Below, piece after piece: positions 1,072 to 13,568 of a stretch of DNA of 29,300 bases. The position numbers and the translations under genes were made by a program. The DNA is from a virus, in the IMG/VR virus record IMGVR_UViG_3300017759_000044, positions 1-29,300 of that record. One strand, 5' to 3'. Position 1 is the stretch's first letter, and every line of letters starts with the position of its first letter. The notes beneath the pieces are model-generated. The model saw nothing but the letters and a program-made list of their open reading frames with translations. It was not told the origin of the DNA and made no database searches.

Positions 1072-1127
1072 GTTAGATAAGCGCCTGAAGCTGGCGTTCT
1101 GACGAGGCCAGCAAGCCGAAATCTAAC
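1072..1127 (+). ncRNA. Hammerhead self-cleaving ribozyme 1 (type III topology)
   Basis: All elements of a hammerhead are present in the right order. Stem III is GTTAGAT (1072-1078) with ATCTAAC (1121-1127), seven perfect pairs. The cleavage triplet is AUA with H17 = A1079, so the predicted cut is 1079/1080. Stem I is AGCGCC (1080-1085) with GGCGTT (1093-1098), six pairs including one G-U, around a 7-nt loop. The core CTGACGA is at 1099-1105. Stem II is GGC/GCC (1106-1108, 1115-1117) with a 6-nt loop. GAA is at 1118-1120, and A1121 pairs with U1078 as required. GCU in loop I can pair with AGC in loop II, a plausible distal contact. The ribozyme ends 22 nt before the ATG at 1150, upstream of the GAGG ribosome-binding site. 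Stem III is the open helix, hence type III. Confidence 0.93.
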
Positions 1128-1149
1128 ACTATTAAATGAGGATATAACG

Positions 1150-1365
1150 ATGATTAAACATTCAAACACCGGCGAGAAAGTGACCCCATTGACAGCAGTC
1201 AAATATGAGATGGCTCATAAAATTGGCGGGCTATTTTATGTTAACTGGGAGGATGAATACCCAGACGCGACTGAGCGAGAGCTGAAGCTGCTAGAGCATC
1301 ATGCTGAGGTGCTGGTTGATCGACTCGCAAAATTGCTAGGAGATCAGGGCTGCTGGACTGGATAA
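1150..1365 (+). CDS. Small acidic protein of unknown function between two ribozymes
   Basis: A 71-residue protein with no recognised family. The second half is predicted helical and charged (ERELKLLEHHAEVLVDRLAKLL, residues about 43-64, divided here as ERELKLLEHH and AEVLVDRLAKLL), preceded by an aromatic/acidic stretch FYVNWEDEYPD. The ATG at 1150 has GAGG 9 nt upstream. The TAA stop (1363-1365) ends one base before stem I of the second hammerhead ribozyme, and the first ribozyme ends 22 nt before the start codon, so this gene is packed between two self-cleaving RNAs. As first gene of the rightward operon it is probably expressed early. Possible roles such as a small host-takeover or regulatory protein are guesses. 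Confidence 0.75.
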   Translation: MIKHSNTGEKVTPLTAVKYEMAHKIGGLFYVNWEDEYPDATERELKLLEHHAEVLVDRLAKLLGDQGCWTG

Positions 1366-1366
1366 A

Positions 1367-1425
1367 TCAACACTGACGAGAGCCAGCTGGTAACTGGTCG
1401 AAACCGCAGCGATGCGGTCTGTTGA
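1367..1425 (+). ncRNA. Hammerhead self-cleaving ribozyme 2 (type I topology)
   Basis: A second complete hammerhead. Stem I is TCAACA (1367-1372) with TGTTGA (1420-1425), six perfect pairs, and is the open helix. Core CTGACGA is at 1373-1379. Stem II pairs GA and CCAG (1380-1381, 1383-1386, with G1382 bulged) with CTGGTC (1394-1399) around a 7-nt loop. GAA is at 1400-1402. Stem III is ACCGCA (1403-1408) with TGCGGT (1413-1418), capped by the GNRA tetraloop GCGA. The cleavage triplet is the classic GUC with H17 = C1419, so the predicted cut is 1419/1420. It begins right after the stop codon of the 71-residue gene. The downstream product would start 26 nt before the ATG at 1446, keeping its AAGGAAAG ribosome-binding site. 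Its stems share no sequence with ribozyme 1, so it is not a simple duplicate. Confidence 0.94.
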
Positions 1426-1445
1426 AACCATATAAGGAAAGCAAC

Positions 1446-1682
1446 ATGCAATATCAAGCGACCGATCATTTTTGGCAGCGAGCGCGGGAGCGCCAGCTGT
1501 TGAGCCGATACGCGGATATCATTGCAGCAGTAAAGCAGGGCCGAAAAATTCCGCAGCGAAACAATAGAGGCGAGCTGCTGTCTGACGTATTCGCGCATAT
1601 AGGCGAGCAGATAACTGTTATTGCTCAGGTCACTGAGCAGACAACCAATTTAATAACTATCTATGAAACGAAGGGAATATAA
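1446..1682 (+). CDS. Small DUF4258-like protein
   Basis: A 78-residue protein. The N-terminus (TDHFWQRARERQL) followed by a short helix (YADIIAAVKQGRKI), then alternating strands ending VIAQVTEQTTNLITIYETK, resembles the DUF4258 / toxin-like RNase fold pattern. In that family a His and an Arg near the start and a C-terminal beta sheet are conserved. The match is by pattern only. The start is the ATG at 1446, with AAGGAAAG 8-9 nt upstream; a TTG 24 nt earlier is inside the ribozyme stem and is rejected. It follows the second hammerhead directly and ends 2 nt before the DUF3150 gene, so the two are probably translated from one mRNA. Whether it is an active nuclease cannot be told. Confidence 0.7.
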   Translation: MQYQATDHFWQRARERQLLSRYADIIAAVKQGRKIPQRNNRGELLSDVFAHIGEQITVIAQVTEQTTNLITIYETKGI

Positions 1683-1684
1683 CT

Positions 1685-2701
1685 ATGGAAAACAAACTTC
1701 AAATGATGCAGCAAAGCGCGAGCGATGCTGTAAAAACCGCAGCAAATAATTTTGTTTTGCTGAGCGTCAAAGTATCGTTCTGGGATGGCGTAGCAAATCT
1801 CACTGGTGCTGCTGAGAAAGCAGCTCTCAACGCTGGAGCTGATCCTGATGGTACGCGCATGTATAAAAATCTGCTAGGCCAATTTCACGGAAAATTGCGA
1901 GAAGTCAAAACAAAATTCCGCAAGCTTAGAACAGCTCTCGATATTGCTTCGATACCCTACGCTCTCGCTCAAGATGACGGCCAGCGACGAGGCGAGAAAA
2001 TGCTGCACGTTACAAGGTACCCAAAAGTTCTTGCTGAACTAATCGCATTACGAGATTCAGCTTTCGATCAGCTCTCAGAATTTTTGAGCAGATACGACGA
2101 GTATCGCTCGCAGGCGCTTGATCAAAATTTCGGCACTTGGAGAGCTGAAGCTGAGAAATTATTTCCGACCAAAGCCGAGGTGATGGCTAAATTTTGCATC
2201 GAGATCAGTGACCCTAAGCCTTTACCAGTGTTCAGCGATGCTCAGCAAGCGACTTTCAATGTTCCAGCTAATGTCATGGCCGAAATTGTCGCTCAGTCTA
2301 ACGCTGCTATATCTAGGCAGTTAGAAGGAGCTAAACAAGATCAGATTCAGTCTGCTCTCAAAACTTGCGAGACGGCCCTTAAACAGCTCACTGATGGCAA
2401 GCGATTTCATCAGTCCGTTATTGATAACGTCAAGCAAGAGGCCGTTAAACTTGGCGAGATCAGTCAGGGATACGATGGCGATCATCGTGTCAAAAAAATC
2501 GCCGAGACTATGCTCGACGGTATCGCTAATGTGAGTGAACCTGAGCAGTGGAAAAATCACGATGGCAAGAAAGCAGAAGCCAAGCTTGCTGCTGAGAAGT
2601 CAGTTCAAAATCTCAAGCGCATGGCTCAAGCTGCACCAGTCGCACCTATTCCTGACTCGTCAGGCGTGATACTTCCAGAGATCACAGCCGATCTTATTTA
2701 A
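1685..2701 (+). CDS. DUF3150 family protein
   Basis: A 338-residue mostly helical protein matching the DUF3150 pattern: an N-terminal SVKVSFWDGVANLT segment, then MYKNLLGQFHGKLREVKTKFRKLRTAL (residues about 60-85, quoted here as MYKNLLGQFHG and KLREVKTKFRK), and a C-terminal helical part. DUF3150 genes are typically found in phages and plasmids beside MoxR-type AAA ATPases and VWA-domain proteins, which is the arrangement here: the AAA gene starts 32 nt downstream. Function is unknown. As an inference from gene order, it may be an adaptor or substrate of the ATPase/VWA pair. The start ATG at 1685 lies 2 nt after the previous stop, with GGGAA upstream. Confidence 0.8.
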   Translation: MENKLQMMQQSASDAVKTAANNFVLLSVKVSFWDGVANLTGAAEKAALNAGADPDGTRMYKNLLGQFHGKLREVKTKFRKLRTALDIASIPYALAQDDGQRRGEKMLHVTRYPKVLAELIALRDSAFDQLSEFLSRYDEYRSQALDQNFGTWRAEAEKLFPTKAEVMAKFCIEISDPKPLPVFSDAQQATFNVPANVMAEIVAQSNAAISRQLEGAKQDQIQSALKTCETALKQLTDGKRFHQSVIDNVKQEAVKLGEISQGYDGDHRVKKIAETMLDGIANVSEPEQWKNHDGKKAEAKLAAEKSVQNLKRMAQAAPVAPIPDSSGVILPEITADLI

Positions 2702-2733
2702 TATTAACTCTATGAAACCAAAGGAAAAATGTT

Positions 2734-3930
2734 ATGACTACTAAAACTCAAAAGACTACTAAAACTCAAAATATTCTCACTACAACAGCCGAGCTAATCA
2801 AAAATCACTTGCCGATCTTGATGGCAACGCAGACCGAATCAGGTTATCAGGGCTCGATGTCGGCTGTAGTGGTCGGCGCTGCCGGCACTGGTAAAACGTA
2901 CATTATGACTAATCAAGTTAGGCAGCTATGGGCTGATGCCAATGGTGTCAGTCTCGATGATGTCGGAATCTTGGTTTATCGGGCTGCTGATCGTGATGCT
3001 GCTGAATTCGCTGGCTTGATGATGCCTAGTAAGAATGCTGCTGGTGAGCTGCACACGGTCGCTAGTATTCCTGATCTTGTATCTCAGATCAGATCGCTGC
3101 GCGATCATGGCAAGTCGCATATCGTCCTAGTGCTTGATGAGATCATGCAGGCGAGCCAAGATGTGCAAAAAACGCTGAGCGATCTGCTTGACCGCAATAC
3201 CAATTGCCTTGGAGGTCATGACTTAGGCGCTGGAATTTTCGTGGTCGGCACTGGCAATCGACAGGCTGACAAGTCAGGCGCGAGGCCAGCACTAGGTCAT
3301 CTCAGAAATCGCATGTGCCTTTTTGAGCTGGAGGGATACAACGGAGATACTGTCGCTGAATGGGTGCGCGACTATGCAGAGCCAGCAGGCATATTGCCAG
3401 CGATTATCGATGTTGCGAGAGATCATGCCGACGATAATTTTTTCGCCGATGCTGTCCCGATTGATGGCGGTTTTTGTTCTTTCAGAGCGCTGACTAACGC
3501 GAGTCGATTGATCAGCACGTACATGGAGCGCACTGGCAAAGTCAAGCTGAGCATCAGCATGCAAGGGCTGGTCGCTGCCGTTGTCGGCGAGAGCGCTGCT
3601 ACGATCATCGCAGATCATTTTGACTGCGCGAATGAGGTTCCCACAGCAGATGACATCTTAAACAGTCCAGAAACGGCGATGGTTCCTGATCAGACAGGTT
3701 ATCAGAATATCGCTGGAACGCTGGCCTTACAGCTTGCTGTTGACTCTCAGTCAGCTGACGCAGCTATCGTGTACATAACGCGATTGAGACGCGACTTGCA
3801 GGTTCAGCTAGGTGTCAGATTGCTCAATAAATCTGAGCGCATCGGCAGCATTCTGATCAGCGCGACCGCTAATAAATTCATCAGAGAGCATCAAGAACAA
3901 ATCGCTCTCGCTTCAGATATGGAGGTATAA
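2734..3930 (+). CDS. MoxR/CobS-type AAA+ ATPase
   Basis: A 398-residue AAA+ ATPase. Walker A is GAAGTGKT (residues about 48-55) and Walker B is VLVLDE (about 131-136). A sensor region follows in FVVGTGNRQ, with an arginine-rich stretch HLRNRM behind it that could hold the arginine finger. The overall plan and the partner gene point to the MoxR/CobS branch, whose members work as chaperone-like remodellers with a VWA-domain partner. The VWA-peptidase gene begins one base after this stop, with GGAGG (3921-3925) inside this gene's end, so the two are almost certainly co-translated. The target of the complex is unknown. Cobalt chelation, the namesake activity of CobS, is unlikely since no cobalamin genes are present. 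Confidence 0.85.
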   Translation: MTTKTQKTTKTQNILTTTAELIKNHLPILMATQTESGYQGSMSAVVVGAAGTGKTYIMTNQVRQLWADANGVSLDDVGILVYRAADRDAAEFAGLMMPSKNAAGELHTVASIPDLVSQIRSLRDHGKSHIVLVLDEIMQASQDVQKTLSDLLDRNTNCLGGHDLGAGIFVVGTGNRQADKSGARPALGHLRNRMCLFELEGYNGDTVAEWVRDYAEPAGILPAIIDVARDHADDNFFADAVPIDGGFCSFRALTNASRLISTYMERTGKVKLSISMQGLVAAVVGESAATIIADHFDCANEVPTADDILNSPETAMVPDQTGYQNIAGTLALQLAVDSQSADAAIVYITRLRRDLQVQLGVRLLNKSERIGSILISATANKFIREHQEQIALASDMEV

Positions 3931-3931
3931 C

Positions 3932-5419
3932 ATGCAAGCCAAAAAACATTTTGATAATACTAATCCTGAGATGTCGGACTCTAAACAATTCGCGTCAGCG
4001 ATGATCATCTTGTCAGCCAAAGCTCGCATATACTGGCGCTTTGTCATTATGCATGAAGTTATCTGGACTCAAAAGTTGCCGACTGCTGCTACCGATGGGG
4101 TTTATATTTATGTCAATCCTGACTTCTTCACCAATTTACCGAGCGATAGCCAGCGAGCGTTTTTGCTAGGGCATGAAGTCGGTCACATGATTTTGAGACA
4201 CCCGCAACGTGGCAAGGCTTTTCGCAAGCGAGAATTTTTTCGCATAGTGAAGGGCCAGCGTATTCCTTTTGACCATAAACTTTTTAATCGCTCTGCTGAT
4301 TTAGTCATCAACGACGATCTACTAGCGCATGGTCTTGAGAAAATCGAGTGCGGTCTATACAGCGAAAAATACGGTCGCGATCACTTAGTAGACGATGTCT
4401 ATATGGAGCTATGGCAAGAGCAGCAAGAGCAGCAAGATCAGCAGCAAGATCAGCAAGATCAGCAGCAATCTAATGACAGCTCTGACAGCTCTGACGATGC
4501 TGACGATGCTGACGGCACTGACGGCACTGACGGTTCTGATGGTTCTGATGGTTCTGATGGTTCTGATGATGCTGACGGTTCTGATGATTCGCAGCAGGAT
4601 GATTCATCTACTCCTGACGAGTCAGCAGGTACAGATCATGACGGACACGATACCCATCTTGAGCCGATATATGATGGCACTGCTGAAGAAGTCGCGCAGG
4701 CCGAAGCTGAAGACACTCGTACACTTGATCGCACTCTTAAAGATGGTATCGAGGATCAAGAGCAAGCGGTTGAGGATGGCGAGTGTCGCGACATCGGACA
4801 TGGCGCTGGACTTGACGAGCGAGTCAAAGCTTCACAAAGCCGAATGAGCGCACCTATAACATGGCGCGACGAGATACCTGATCTGCTTCAAAAGGCTGGC
4901 AAGGGTGGCTCAGTGTCATGGTCTCGCATACACTCACGACGATTCAATCTGTACGGTGTTGTGTCACCAGTCACCAAAGGCTCGCTCAATCAAGCAGCGA
5001 TCATTATCGACATATCATACTCTGTTGATCGAAACGCTCTGAACGAATATCTGCACGTTGTTGCCGATATGATTGACGAGTTGCAGCCGACTGATGGCTT
5101 TCTGATATTGCTTACAGCCGACAGCGTTGAGCATTGCTACGAGGTCTATTCAGGTGCTGAGCTGCTCGATCTTGAGATTCCCTACGGTGGCGGAACCAAC
5201 ATGTCAGCAGGCTTGGATTACATCGAAGAGCAGGGCTATTCGCCCGATCTTGTCATGGTCTTTACTGACTACGAAGTCACTCATGATGATGGCAAGCGAC
5301 TGGTTGATGAGGGCTGCGTGATCGTGATGGACGGCCAGCCATCAGAATACGCTCGTTGGGTAATGGGCCGAACAGACCCGCGAGTGATCACTGTGGATGA
5401 CAGCTCACTCGCAGCGTAA
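3932..5419 (+). CDS. Metallopeptidase-like / VWA-domain protein (DUF2201-like)
   Basis: A 495-residue two-domain protein. The N-terminal domain carries a zinc-protease signature HEVGH (residues 81-85), with SADLVINDDL downstream (about 115-124), as in the putative metallopeptidase domain of DUF2201 proteins. A low-complexity linker follows (about 161-225: Gln/Glu/Asp repeats, then Ser/Asp/Gly repeats). The C-terminal VWA-like domain has a MIDAS-type DISYS (about 360-364), a GGGTNMSAGL loop and FTDYE, all expected metal-binding positions. It presumably partners with the AAA ATPase encoded immediately upstream, as MoxR-VWA pairs do. The protease motif suggests it may cut a protein rather than only bind it. 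No family member's phage function is known to me. Confidence 0.85.
   Translation: MQAKKHFDNTNPEMSDSKQFASAMIILSAKARIYWRFVIMHEVIWTQKLPTAATDGVYIYVNPDFFTNLPSDSQRAFLLGHEVGHMILRHPQRGKAFRKREFFRIVKGQRIPFDHKLFNRSADLVINDDLLAHGLEKIECGLYSEKYGRDHLVDDVYMELWQEQQEQQDQQQDQQDQQQSNDSSDSSDDADDADGTDGTDGSDGSDGSDGSDDADGSDDSQQDDSSTPDESAGTDHDGHDTHLEPIYDGTAEEVAQAEAEDTRTLDRTLKDGIEDQEQAVEDGECRDIGHGAGLDERVKASQSRMSAPITWRDEIPDLLQKAGKGGSVSWSRIHSRRFNLYGVVSPVTKGSLNQAAIIIDISYSVDRNALNEYLHVVADMIDELQPTDGFLILLTADSVEHCYEVYSGAELLDLEIPYGGGTNMSAGLDYIEEQGYSPDLVMVFTDYEVTHDDGKRLVDEGCVIVMDGQPSEYARWVMGRTDPRVITVDDSSLAA
4414..4605 (+). repeat. In-frame short tandem repeats coding the acidic linker
   Basis: The linker is made of degenerate 9-bp units. 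The first run is based on CAGCAAGAK (coding QQE/QQD). The second is based on GAYGGYTCT, GACGGCACT and GACGATGCT (coding DGS, DGT, DDA). Several units are exact copies, for example four consecutive gatggttct-type units near 4530-4565. Such arrays change length by slippage without breaking the frame. Confidence 0.8.
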
Positions 5420-5447
5420 CTAGTCACGACTTCACTTAACTTTAAAC

Positions 5448-5463
5448 GCTGCCTTCGGGCAGC
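5448..5463 (+). promoter_or_regulatory. C(UUCG)G tetraloop hairpin before a ribosome-binding site
   Basis: GCTGCC (5448-5453), TTCG (5454-5457) and GGCAGC (5458-5463) form a perfect 6-bp stem capped by the exceptionally stable UUCG loop. No T-run follows, so it is not an ordinary terminator. The hairpin touches the AAGGA ribosome-binding site (5464-5468) of the gene starting at 5477, a position suited to mRNA end protection or translation control. Confidence 0.65.
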
Positions 5464-5476
5464 AAGGAATTCTATT

Positions 5477-5752
5477 ATGATGAGTACATTTTATATCGAC
5501 ATGCCAAGCTGGATAAATTATATGAATCGTCCGGTGGAGCTAAAAGTTATTGCTGACTTGTCACCCATAGAGCCTGACGTAGGCATCATGGGCAATGGCA
5601 AGCAGGCGGTCGAATTATTGTCAGTTTATTGCGACGAAAAAGGATACGATCCGAATGAGGATATTCTGGAATGTTTTTCAACAGAGAGACAGGACGATAT
5701 CGCTCAGTTAATTTATCGACAACTAGAGGAGAGCAGTGATGAGGAGAGATAG
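5477..5752 (+). CDS. Hypothetical acidic protein
   Basis: A 91-residue acidic protein with no recognised family. It has an N-terminal FYIDMPSWINYM segment, a central IMGNGKQAVELLSVYC helix and a Glu-rich C-terminus (ECFSTERQDDIAQLIYRQLEE). ATG at 5477 is preceded by AAGGA with 8-nt spacing, and a second ATG lies one codon later. It follows the VWA gene after a 57-nt gap containing a UUCG hairpin, and its last 14 nt overlap the next gene. It also contains one TGACTTGTCA palindrome (5554-5563). Confidence 0.7.
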   Translation: MMSTFYIDMPSWINYMNRPVELKVIADLSPIEPDVGIMGNGKQAVELLSVYCDEKGYDPNEDILECFSTERQDDIAQLIYRQLEESSDEER

Positions 5753-5969
5753 AAGAAAAAAACAAGATGGTGGTGGATTGATGATGGCTGGCGGGTTTTT
5801 ATGCGGGGTGTTTACTGTTGTTGTTGTCATGTCAGCAATAAGCATCGGCTCGCGCTACGACATTATCGAAGCTGAACGTGCTGAAAGTTTATGCACAGAA
5901 ATGTTAGAGTTACACAAATCCACAGATGGTAGATATGGCTGGCCTAGTTGCAGCCATCTACTATCATAA
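5739..5969 (+). CDS. Small single-pass membrane protein
   Basis: A 76-residue protein with a basic N-terminus (RRDRRKKQ), one hydrophobic segment (LMMAGGFLCGVFTVVVVMSA, residues about 15-34) and a C-terminal part with two cysteines that would lie in the periplasm by the positive-inside rule. ATG at 5739 is preferred over the GTG one codon earlier because AGAGGAG is well placed upstream. It overlaps the previous gene by exactly 14 nt. Size and topology fit a holin- or spanin-like or superinfection protein, but no family is recognised and the endolysin is far away in another operon. Confidence 0.65.
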   Translation: MRRDRRKKQDGGGLMMAGGFLCGVFTVVVVMSAISIGSRYDIIEAERAESLCTEMLELHKSTDGRYGWPSCSHLLS

Positions 5970-5983
5970 CTTAGGAGTAAGCT

Positions 5984-6460
5984 ATGAAACTTGAGGATGT
6001 CTTAGACCCATTATCGTGTGCAGGCTTGGTACACGAGGGCTATGCTGGATTTACTGAAAACAACGAATTTTTCTTAAACCTACGAATGTTTTACGACAAA
6101 AAACATTCTTGGCTTGAGGTTCCTATACACCTACTTGCGATGATGAAATTGCTGCCAAACGATTTCTCAAAGTATTGCTATATCGACAGAGAAAAATCTC
6201 GACTGTATTTAGACGAAGATGTTGATGTTGGCATGTTTATGAAAGCGTGTTATGACTGGCCGAAAAATATAAACAGAGGAATCAATATGTCAAAAGCTAT
6301 GGAATTCTTGGGAGATGACGCAATCGCAGAATGGAATACGATTAAGGATTGTAAATTAGTTGGAGAATCTCTCGTTGATTCTATCCAATTTAAAACAAAT
6401 TCAGAAACCGATTTCATCAAAGATTTTGCCAAGAACGATAAAGGCCAGTCTATCCATTAG
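5984..6460 (+). CDS. Hypothetical protein, last gene of the left operon
   Basis: A 158-residue protein with no recognised family and no obvious motif. The sequence is mixed alpha/beta and mildly acidic, with aromatic-rich NNEFFLNLRMFYDKKHSWLEV near the start (residues about 26-46, quoted as FFLNLRMFYDKKHSW). ATG at 5984 has AGGAG about 7 nt upstream and the gene starts 14 nt after the membrane protein. It ends the rightward operon by overlapping the end of the leftward operon by 11 nt (6450-6460), so the two operons converge with no room for a dedicated terminator. Confidence 0.7.
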   Translation: MKLEDVLDPLSCAGLVHEGYAGFTENNEFFLNLRMFYDKKHSWLEVPIHLLAMMKLLPNDFSKYCYIDREKSRLYLDEDVDVGMFMKACYDWPKNINRGINMSKAMEFLGDDAIAEWNTIKDCKLVGESLVDSIQFKTNSETDFIKDFAKNDKGQSIH

Positions 6461-8591: not shown

Positions 8592-8885
8592 TTAGACCCC
8601 TAACTGCTCCAGCAGTTTATTTATTATCGCTCTCTTTTGAACATTCTTTAATTCAATAGTCAGTGCGACTGTTTTTAAAATATAATTGTAACCTATTTCT
8701 AGCTCATCGCAGTCCTCTTTAAATTGTTTTGATAAAAAATATCTATGCGCATTCTTCCGTAGTTTTGCTTTGTTCGATGCGAGGTCGCACAAGGCAAGCC
8801 TAACTATTTTTTTTAATAACTCAGTCCGTGGCCCAGACGTAAATAATACTTCGGGGATTTTCTCTATCGAGGGCGTGGTAGACAT
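8592..8885 (-). CDS. Hypothetical helical protein
   Basis: A 97-residue basic, helical protein (LLKKIVRLALCDLASNKAKL, then a second helical half TVALTIELKNVQKRAIINKLL) without a recognised family. The ATG at 8885 lies 65 nt inside the RusA gene, but an excellent AAGGAGAA ribosome-binding site stands 2-8 nt upstream, so the long overlap is probably real. It is sandwiched between RusA and the primase-helicase, which suggests an accessory role in replication or recombination; this is inference only. Confidence 0.65.
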   Translation of the reverse strand: MSTTPSIEKIPEVLFTSGPRTELLKKIVRLALCDLASNKAKLRKNAHRYFLSKQFKEDCDELEIGYNYILKTVALTIELKNVQKRAIINKLLEQLGV

Positions 8886-12443: not shown

Positions 12444-13430
12444 ATGTACCGATCAGATAACAATCTATTAAAAAATTTATTAAAACGTAATCGATACGTG
12501 CTTGGAGATACCGCCGTCTTACCAGAAATGTTAAATCAAGCCTACAAGCTTCCGTTTATAAGTATGCCAATGCAGGAAATGGAAAAAGTAAAAGACGAAA
12601 TGGGGCCATTAGCAGTACAACAAAGCTATCCAAGCAACAGTTATGAGCCAGTCTTTGATGAGTGCGTTCTTCATTACGAACATTTAGTGGAACTCCGTAC
12701 AGATGTTGATGTTGGTATGGAATATGCTGAATGTTGGGGAGCTATTTTTAACATCGACAATCCTTTTATTAAAAAACTTCCAGATTATCCATCTTCAGAA
12801 TCAATACATAAGATGTTTGCAGAAACAAAAGTCATATGGGAAACAGTGAAATTTATTTATCACATTGTTAGATACGAAAAAACTGACCGTTATATTTTTA
12901 TTTGGTCAGGATGGGTGGGCGCTGAAGAGGGTGGAAAAACGATGCGTACATTACCAACAAGATCAGCAGAAGCATACTGGCGATCAAAAGATACGATAAA
13001 AAATTTAGACGAGGGACTGCAATCCCACGTAGCAAATACACTAGGTTTTCTACATTACGTTTTTCTTTACTCAAAATATGGTGAAAAACATGCTGTAGAG
13101 AAAGTGTCAAGCAAAGCAAAGCCCAGAAAAATAAATTCTCTTAATGTCAAAAGACCTTGGAATACAGCAACAGGCCCACACATATTATTTTTGGATCGAC
13201 TGCCGACAAAACAAAAAGAACAATGCGAAAACACAGGAAGCAGTAAAAAACCACACAGGCGAAGAGGGCATTGGCGTACTCTTAATCATCCTAAGTATCG
13301 GCATCATCCGCAGTTTGGAAAAAAGATTTATGTTAAGCCCAGTTTTATTGGCCCTAACGAATCAGAATACGAAGGTAATACTTATCGTCTCATCAAACCT
13401 CTAGACGAGGTTTTCTCTGATGATGACTAA
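12444..13430 (+). CDS. Hypothetical protein with His/Arg-rich C-terminal domain
   Basis: A 328-residue protein. The N-terminal two thirds have no recognised family (helical, aromatic-rich, for example YIFIWSGWVGAEE). The C-terminus carries a basic, histidine-rich segment (KKPHRRRGHWRTLNHPKYRH, then FGKKIYVKPSFIGPNESEYEG) that resembles a short conserved module found at the ends of many phage and prophage proteins of unknown function. AAAGGATA precedes the ATG, and the strong promoter at 12384 drives it directly. Its stop is followed by a 138-bp palindrome-rich gap. Nucleic-acid binding is plausible from charge but unproven. Confidence 0.75.
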   Translation: MYRSDNNLLKNLLKRNRYVLGDTAVLPEMLNQAYKLPFISMPMQEMEKVKDEMGPLAVQQSYPSNSYEPVFDECVLHYEHLVELRTDVDVGMEYAECWGAIFNIDNPFIKKLPDYPSSESIHKMFAETKVIWETVKFIYHIVRYEKTDRYIFIWSGWVGAEEGGKTMRTLPTRSAEAYWRSKDTIKNLDEGLQSHVANTLGFLHYVFLYSKYGEKHAVEKVSSKAKPRKINSLNVKRPWNTATGPHILFLDRLPTKQKEQCENTGSSKKPHRRRGHWRTLNHPKYRHHPQFGKKIYVKPSFIGPNESEYEGNTYRLIKPLDEVFSDDD

Positions 13431-13434
13431 AGAA

Positions 13435-13464
13435 TGGAAAAGGTTGGAAAAGGTTGGAGAAGGG
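13435..13464 (+). repeat. Tandem 10-bp repeat TGGAAAAGGT x3
   Basis: Three consecutive 10-bp units begin five bases after the stop of the preceding gene, the first two identical (TGGAAAAGGT) and the third diverged (TGGAGAAGGG). The period is close to one helical turn. It directly abuts a perfect palindrome at 13464-13478. Confidence 0.65.
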
Positions 13465-13494
13465 TGGATATTATCCACTAGTCCTGACTTGTCA
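13464..13494. promoter_or_regulatory. Operator-like palindromes GTGGATA-T-TATCCAC and TGACTTGTCA
   Basis: GTGGATA and TATCCAC (13464-13478) form a perfect 15-bp dyad, and TGACTTGTCA (13485-13494) lies 6 bp further on. On the minus strand the second palindrome contains TTGACA (13495-13490), followed after 16 bp by TAATAT, a possible leftward promoter that would run antisense to the gene at 12444-13430. The density of dyads in a non-coding gap suggests a regulatory switch. Confidence 0.45.
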
Positions 13495-13517
13495 AGGTTA
13501 ATAAAACAGAATTTAAA

Positions 13518-13539
13518 AAACATAACATTTATTATGTTT
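13518..13539. repeat. AT-rich inverted repeat AAACATAA / TTATGTTT
   Basis: AAACATAA (13518-13525) and TTATGTTT (13532-13539) are perfect 8-bp complements with a 6-nt loop. The repeat lies 30 bp before the start of the 43-residue gene at 13569 and may be an operator or a weak mRNA hairpin. No T-run follows. Confidence 0.4.
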
Positions 13540-13568
13540 ACGGAACAATAATTACTTTTGGAACAAAT

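Follow-up and report, generated by a model that had tools for sequence, protein, structure and literature searches.

Clusters of hammerhead ribozymes around genes are already known from prophages, in which individual genes or short blocks of genes often lie between multiple hammerheads (Perreault et al. 2011, PMC3088659). These authors suggested that such clusters process transcripts into single-gene mRNAs; they also raised circles as a possibility, which they sought and did not detect. In vitro, three of the arrays underwent cleavage, which for the one from A. tumefaciens was seen in E. coli as well. A 2017 review (PMC6155905) again describes hammerheads that flank small, nonconserved ORFs, links them to phages, and calls their prokaryotic role an open question. 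Here we analyzed a stretch of 29,300 nucleotides (hereafter the window; IMG/VR virus record IMGVR_UViG_3300017759_000044, positions 1 to 29,300) in which a type III and a type I hammerhead stand on either side of one 71-codon gene. The preliminary description of this locus knew of no described phage system in which a type III plus type I pair cuts out a cistron, and called the combination its best candidate for something new. Given that gene-flanking hammerhead clusters of phages and prophages were published in 2011 (PMC3088659) and taken up again in PMC6155905, this was too strong, and the arrangement in the window belongs to a known kind.

As in the clusters of PMC3088659, several hammerheads per phage transcript surround a single gene or a short run of genes; in the window, two of them flank a gene on what, from strand and spacing, would be one transcript. 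Unlike those clusters, as the accessible part of that paper presents them, the present ones occur in uncultivated phages and have a leader-plus-operon layout, with type III standing after the leader and the other two types at stop codons. Three things look new, namely this rule of position, the leader RNA, and a hairpin element that occupies the same junctions; for the rule, we found no statement in the searchable literature, a search that most subscription journals lie outside.

Two other groups of self-cleaving RNAs invite comparison. In retrozymes and viroid-like RNAs, hammerheads free an RNA of unit length that has a 5'-OH and a cyclic phosphate at its ends, as those of the window would; in the available portions of PMC4918200 and PMC7229834, their repeated units self-cleave and circularize. 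In the window, by contrast, two unlike ribozymes bound a coding unit in a DNA phage operon; the ends do not come from repeated copies able to re-form one ribozyme, and a circle is not indicated. The HDV-like theta ribozymes of gut phages resemble the present elements in that phage RNA is processed by self-cleaving ribozymes; however, according to the accessible part of PMC10879173, they have a different fold and are tied to tRNA-based recoding, not to mRNA segmentation.

Two hammerheads flank a small gene

As judged from sequence, both self-cutting RNA elements that flank the small gene are confirmed as genuine (Table 1). They and their cuts lie where the preliminary description had placed them, the cores of both are complete, and both outscore shuffled sequence. 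In the type III copy, stem III (GTTAGAT/ATCTAAC) ends in H17, which is A1079, and is followed by stem I (AGCGCC/GGCGTT), the core CTGACGA (1099-1105), stem II (GGC/GCC), and GAAA. This copy has the CUGANGA...GAAA core, U16.1 and H17 at the cut, the A15.1-U16.1 pair, and three covariation-backed helices of which stem III is open. The type I copy has a full core and three helices, with stem I (TCAACA/TGTTGA) open; its core, CTGACGA (1373-1379), is followed by a stem II with one bulged base, GAAA, and stem III (ACCGCA-GCGA-TGCGGT, in which GCGA is the closing loop), H17 being C1419.

The two cuts lie 340 nt apart. After a type III cut, the ribozyme body (1080-1127) would remain with the downstream RNA and, after a type I cut, the body (1367-1419) would remain with the upstream RNA, so that the 340-nt RNA would retain both bodies, one at each end. 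Cleavage at both sites is predicted, and we infer that the ribozymes are active in the cell, which RNAs they release, and how stable these are. Minimum-free-energy folds, in which loop-loop contacts go unscored, favor rival pairings by 3.0 and 4.5 kcal/mol.

Table 1. Positions of the ribozymes, neighboring genes, and hairpin elements (window coordinates unless a relative is named)
Feature	Position	Strand	Remarks
Terminase small subunit gene	37-498	leftward	Divergent from operon
Noncoding leader RNA before type III ribozyme	893-1079 (start approximate)	+	Motif ACTGAACGGCCCAGTATACGGTCGG at 979-1003
Type III hammerhead ribozyme	1072-1127	+	Predicted cut A1079/A1080; read from sequence and descriptor
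Type III loop I, UGAAGCU	1086-1092	+	GCU pairable with AGC of loop II
Type III loop II, CAGCAA	1109-1114	+	AGC is partner of loop I GCU
Shine-Dalgarno GAGG of 71-codon gene	1138-1141	+	Sequence; Shine-Dalgarno detection
71-aa ORF between both cuts	1150-1365	+	No family in Pfam or PHROG
Type I hammerhead ribozyme	1367-1425	+	Predicted cut C1419/T1420; starts 1 nt past stop codon
Type I loop II, UGGU	1388-1391	+	Predicted pseudoknot with ACCA 1427-1430
ACCA, predicted pseudoknot 3' half	1427-1430	+	Immediately before Shine-Dalgarno of next gene
78-aa DUF4258-like gene, first after second cut	1446-1682	+	Pfam PF14076, E 0.0016, under curated cutoff
DUF3150-like, AAA ATPase, and DUF2201 metallopeptidase/VWA genes	1685-5419	+	Protein family search
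Hairpin element	L035:5127-5161, 5503-5539, 5896-5932		Junctions
Hairpin element	L032:5067-5111, 5631-5663		Junctions
Hairpin element	L013:4259-4292; L015:5489-5524; L016:5485-5517; L033:3934-3965		Junctions
Hairpin element	L041, L045	-	Junctions

Both strands of the 29.3-kb window were scanned with a home-made descriptor, and 4000 dinucleotide shuffles of the whole window served as the control. The type III element scored 43.5, a value reached by none of the 4000 shuffles; the type I element scored 36.0, and 36 was reached by 3 of them. A third hammerhead-like match (13413-13563; score, 23.5) was at shuffle level and was rejected. At Rfam gathering thresholds, the window gave no match, including to either hammerhead, which we judge to be a false negative; the gathering score is a detection threshold rather than a structural feature, and both window copies lie below theirs. 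A relaxed scan placed Hammerhead_1 (RF00163) at 1367-1425 with 21.8 bits (gathering threshold, 34) and left the type III copy, which misses the Hammerhead_3 gathering score, unmatched. In core, junction, and their three permuted forms, the ribozymes of these phages are like the RAGATH-1 hammerhead (RF03152) and the Rfam families Hammerhead_1, Hammerhead_3, and Hammerhead_II; they differ in that the window copies fall under the gathering thresholds and relatives come near them, the type III homologue in L059 reaching 43.5 bits against a Hammerhead_3 threshold of 48.5 and the best type II copy 36.8 against 37. Covariance model R3, made from 11 type I copies of other phages with the window left out, scored 44.3 bits (E 2e-10) at 1368-1424, its sole match in 29.3 kb. 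Model R1, the training set of which included the window, gave the type III copy 66.5 bits.

The enclosed gene, the operon, and the leader

In agreement with the preliminary description, the 71-codon ORF sits inside the 340-nt interval together with its own Shine-Dalgarno sequence. Among viral contigs, its only match is an identical copy in the contig L009, which is from the same phage; the terminase of a further contig, L036, is 100% identical to that of the window. Rightward, the order is a noncoding stretch, the ribozymes, and then the DUF4258-like, DUF3150-like, AAA ATPase, and DUF2201 metallopeptidase/VWA genes. The DUF4258-like gene has homologues in L011, L012, and L013, and the DUF3150 assignment is weak (3 of 5 homologues; best E, 0.0024). 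The AAA protein had no relative among bacterial and archaeal genome contigs. Cultured phages gave no match to the window by DNA search and none by the terminase small subunit, and no cultured close relative is therefore at hand.

The leader recurs in relatives, where it is some 180 to 230 nt long and precedes the operon. Its motif (ACUGAACGGCNCAGKAUANNGUCGG) is found in L016, L059, L062, L063, L066, L073, L076, L078, L082, L085, and L104. The leader has no match in Rfam, and an attempt at a consensus fold across groups gave no solution. A promoter scan ahead of the leader was without a match on the + strand.

Distribution of the ribozymes among relatives

Close relatives were gathered through the AAA, VWA, and DUF3150 proteins and a wider set through the terminase small subunit, that is, not by the ribozymes themselves. 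Within the window's subgroup, the pair is not conserved, in that L010 and L013 have only type III, at the leader-gene junction, and L011 and L012 have neither hammerhead (type I is absent from all four, L010-L013). Further afield, type III followed by type I is seen in L059-L061/L069, L066, L073, L084, and L104, with L082 and L085 showing the same order but a variant type III; wherever a phage has both types, the order is III and then I. Units from first to second cut contain one or two genes, such as a single 70-aa gene in the 327-nt unit of L073 and a single 180-aa gene in the 664-nt unit of L084. The proposal that such a pair excises a one-gene RNA is well supported as an arrangement, given its recurrence in relatives and the single-gene unit of L073. 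The check suggested alongside, a search of related phages for paired hammerheads around a homologous gene, found the pairs but not the gene; from phage to phage, the genes enclosed by the pair lack homology, and the first genes after the leader are not homologous to the 71-aa ORF. When terminases were clustered at 80% identity and at least 2.5 kb on the operon side was required, a hammerhead was present in 6 of 15 clusters, counts that are limited by fragment ends. Both types occur in two terminase clusters and in the window, the cluster of which otherwise has type III only.

Two further features of these relatives deserve mention. In L073, a type I ribozyme (6400-6452, - strand) and extra small genes follow the first gene, whereas in L066 the first gene abuts the next; compared with L104 and L066, the L073 gene and its type I ribozyme look, from the sequence, as if they had been inserted as a cassette. 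In L063, L067, L085, and L094 (- strand), several hammerheads have one extra U between core A9 and stem II.

Placement, covariation, and tertiary contacts

Hammerheads are common in the terminase-fetched set, which holds 27 distinct ones (15 type I and 12 type III), and all 27 lie on the operon strand. Every type I copy (15/15) starts at most 9 nt from the upstream stop codon of a gene of at least 50 codons, and 13 of the 15 have a Shine-Dalgarno sequence and start codon 17 to 31 nt downstream. All 12 type III copies follow a leader, three of them showing only short, doubtful ORFs upstream, and a start codon lies 7 to 19 nt after the ribozyme in 10 of the 12. Both type II copies of L078 come directly after stop codons. 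In four distinct copies (L059, L066, L068, and L073), the UGA that ends the gene doubles as U4-G5-A6 of the catalytic core. The type II hammerheads that we observed (L078 1668-1735 and 1039-1102 and L062 3828-3892, all on the - strand) score 36.8, 35.2, and 35.3 bits, respectively, just below the Rfam threshold of 37.

In an alignment of 13 type III sequences, 12 of 17 pairs vary on both sides, with a slid-partner control near zero, and in 14 type I copies, 13 of 16 pairs do so, a signal that sliding the partners abolishes; these helix counts are partly circular, since the copies were selected by a pairing scan. The loop contacts played no part in that selection. In type III, the contact between loops I and II reads UGCU/AGCA in relatives, UGCC/GGCA in L084, and is swapped in L099. 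In type I, the tertiary contact between the stem I side and loop II also covaries, being UGGU/ACCA in the window and L073 and UGGA/UCCA or GGAU/AUCC in most others (chance match for a single copy, p about 0.15). The weight of these contacts rests on their constant place and compensatory changes; a single match this short is no rarity by chance.

Probable segmentation of the operon transcript and its alternatives

Because genuine ribozymes flank the gene and the same kinds stand at gene boundaries in relatives, the message is probably cut into separate mRNAs. We consider it probable that the operon is diced cotranscriptionally into a leader RNA, small-gene mRNAs with ribozyme bodies at their ends, and a downstream AAA/VWA mRNA. 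RNA polymerase would copy leader and operon rightward as one RNA, away from the leftward terminase small subunit gene. While still being made, this RNA would be severed by the type III ribozyme where the leader gives way to the first gene, and by type I just past that gene, which would part it from the main operon. The first of the three products would be the leader, which would carry a 2',3'-cyclic phosphate after its final ...GAUA. The second would be a linear mRNA of 340 nt that encodes the 71-aa protein and keeps a ribozyme body at either end, type III at the 5' and type I at the 3' side. The third, which would start with a 5'-OH and have a leader of 26 nt, would be the downstream message for the DUF4258, DUF3150, AAA, and VWA proteins. 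In this way, the ribozymes would serve as processing sites built into the transcript, and each segment would have ends, a half-life, and a translation of its own. Uncoupling of the 71-codon gene from the downstream operon, one of the options that the preliminary description had offered, emerges as the best reading. Unmasking of the ribosome-binding site through cleavage is unsupported, as its predicted accessibility hardly changes on cutting. Given this, and given that the active fold is not the lowest in predicted energy, mRNA decay or dosage is a likelier purpose than unmasking.

It may be instead that selection acts on the type III cut alone, giving the leader its 3' end, and that type I is incidental, having arrived with the 71-aa cassette. 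The retention of just type III at the leader-gene junction of L010 and L013, the recurrence of the leader motif in many relatives, and the nonhomology of the first genes after it would all fit. However, the type I core is perfect, its pseudoknot covaries, and other lineages also carry type I copies at junctions between genes, and we regard selection of the leader cut alone as unlikely. More improbable still is that hammerheads arise or spread easily and mark phage cassettes without being of use. Their presence does differ between close relatives, and the type I copy of L073 adjoins genes missing from L104 and L066, but neutral passengers would be hard to reconcile with the strict strand and stop-codon placement, with compensatory changes in helices and loop contacts, and with the three permuted forms occupying different kinds of junction. 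Hammerheads leave a 5'-OH and a 2',3'-cyclic phosphate, ends that RtcB can join, which would suit the 340-nt RNA to it. That a host RtcB or other ligase closes this RNA into a translatable circle, as had been conceived, is nevertheless scarcely credible, in that no RNA ligase was recognized among the window proteins tested, the ends come from different ribozymes that cannot rebuild one hammerhead for self-ligation, and similar bacterial clusters were searched for circles and none was found (PMC3088659).

Ribozyme form and a hairpin element at the same junctions

In relatives that have no hammerhead at these positions, a hairpin element (AUAUCGAA-stem-UUCUAUUAUG or UACUCGAUG-stem-UAUCUAUGAAUUACUUUU, with conserved flanks) occupies the same leader-gene and gene-gene junctions (Table 1). 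Its stem covaries at 5 of 9 pairs, and it has no match in Rfam. A reading as an intrinsic terminator was set aside because the U-run is separated from the stem rather than directly after it.

One possible, and distinctly tentative, extension is that the form of the ribozyme is a code. Type III, placed after the leader, would leave its body to cap the following mRNA at the 5' end; the other two types lie on stop codons, where the type I body would cap the 3' end of the preceding gene. In copies with UGA in the core, the terminating ribosome might cover the core, so that translation gates cleavage, and junctions without hammerheads might use the covarying hairpin, perhaps an unrecognized processing element or ribozyme. 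Ribozyme form would then match whichever side of the cut needs protection. As a group, these phages make up a natural series of related operons with type I, II, or III, the hairpin, or nothing at the same junctions, which makes the segmentation idea testable.

Hairpins of another kind were noted farther along. A GC-rich hairpin (GCTGCC-TTCG-GGCAGC) lies at 5426-5470 of the window, just before the Shine-Dalgarno sequence and start of a 91-aa gene at 5477, and a similar hairpin follows the VWA gene of L011, near position 8640.
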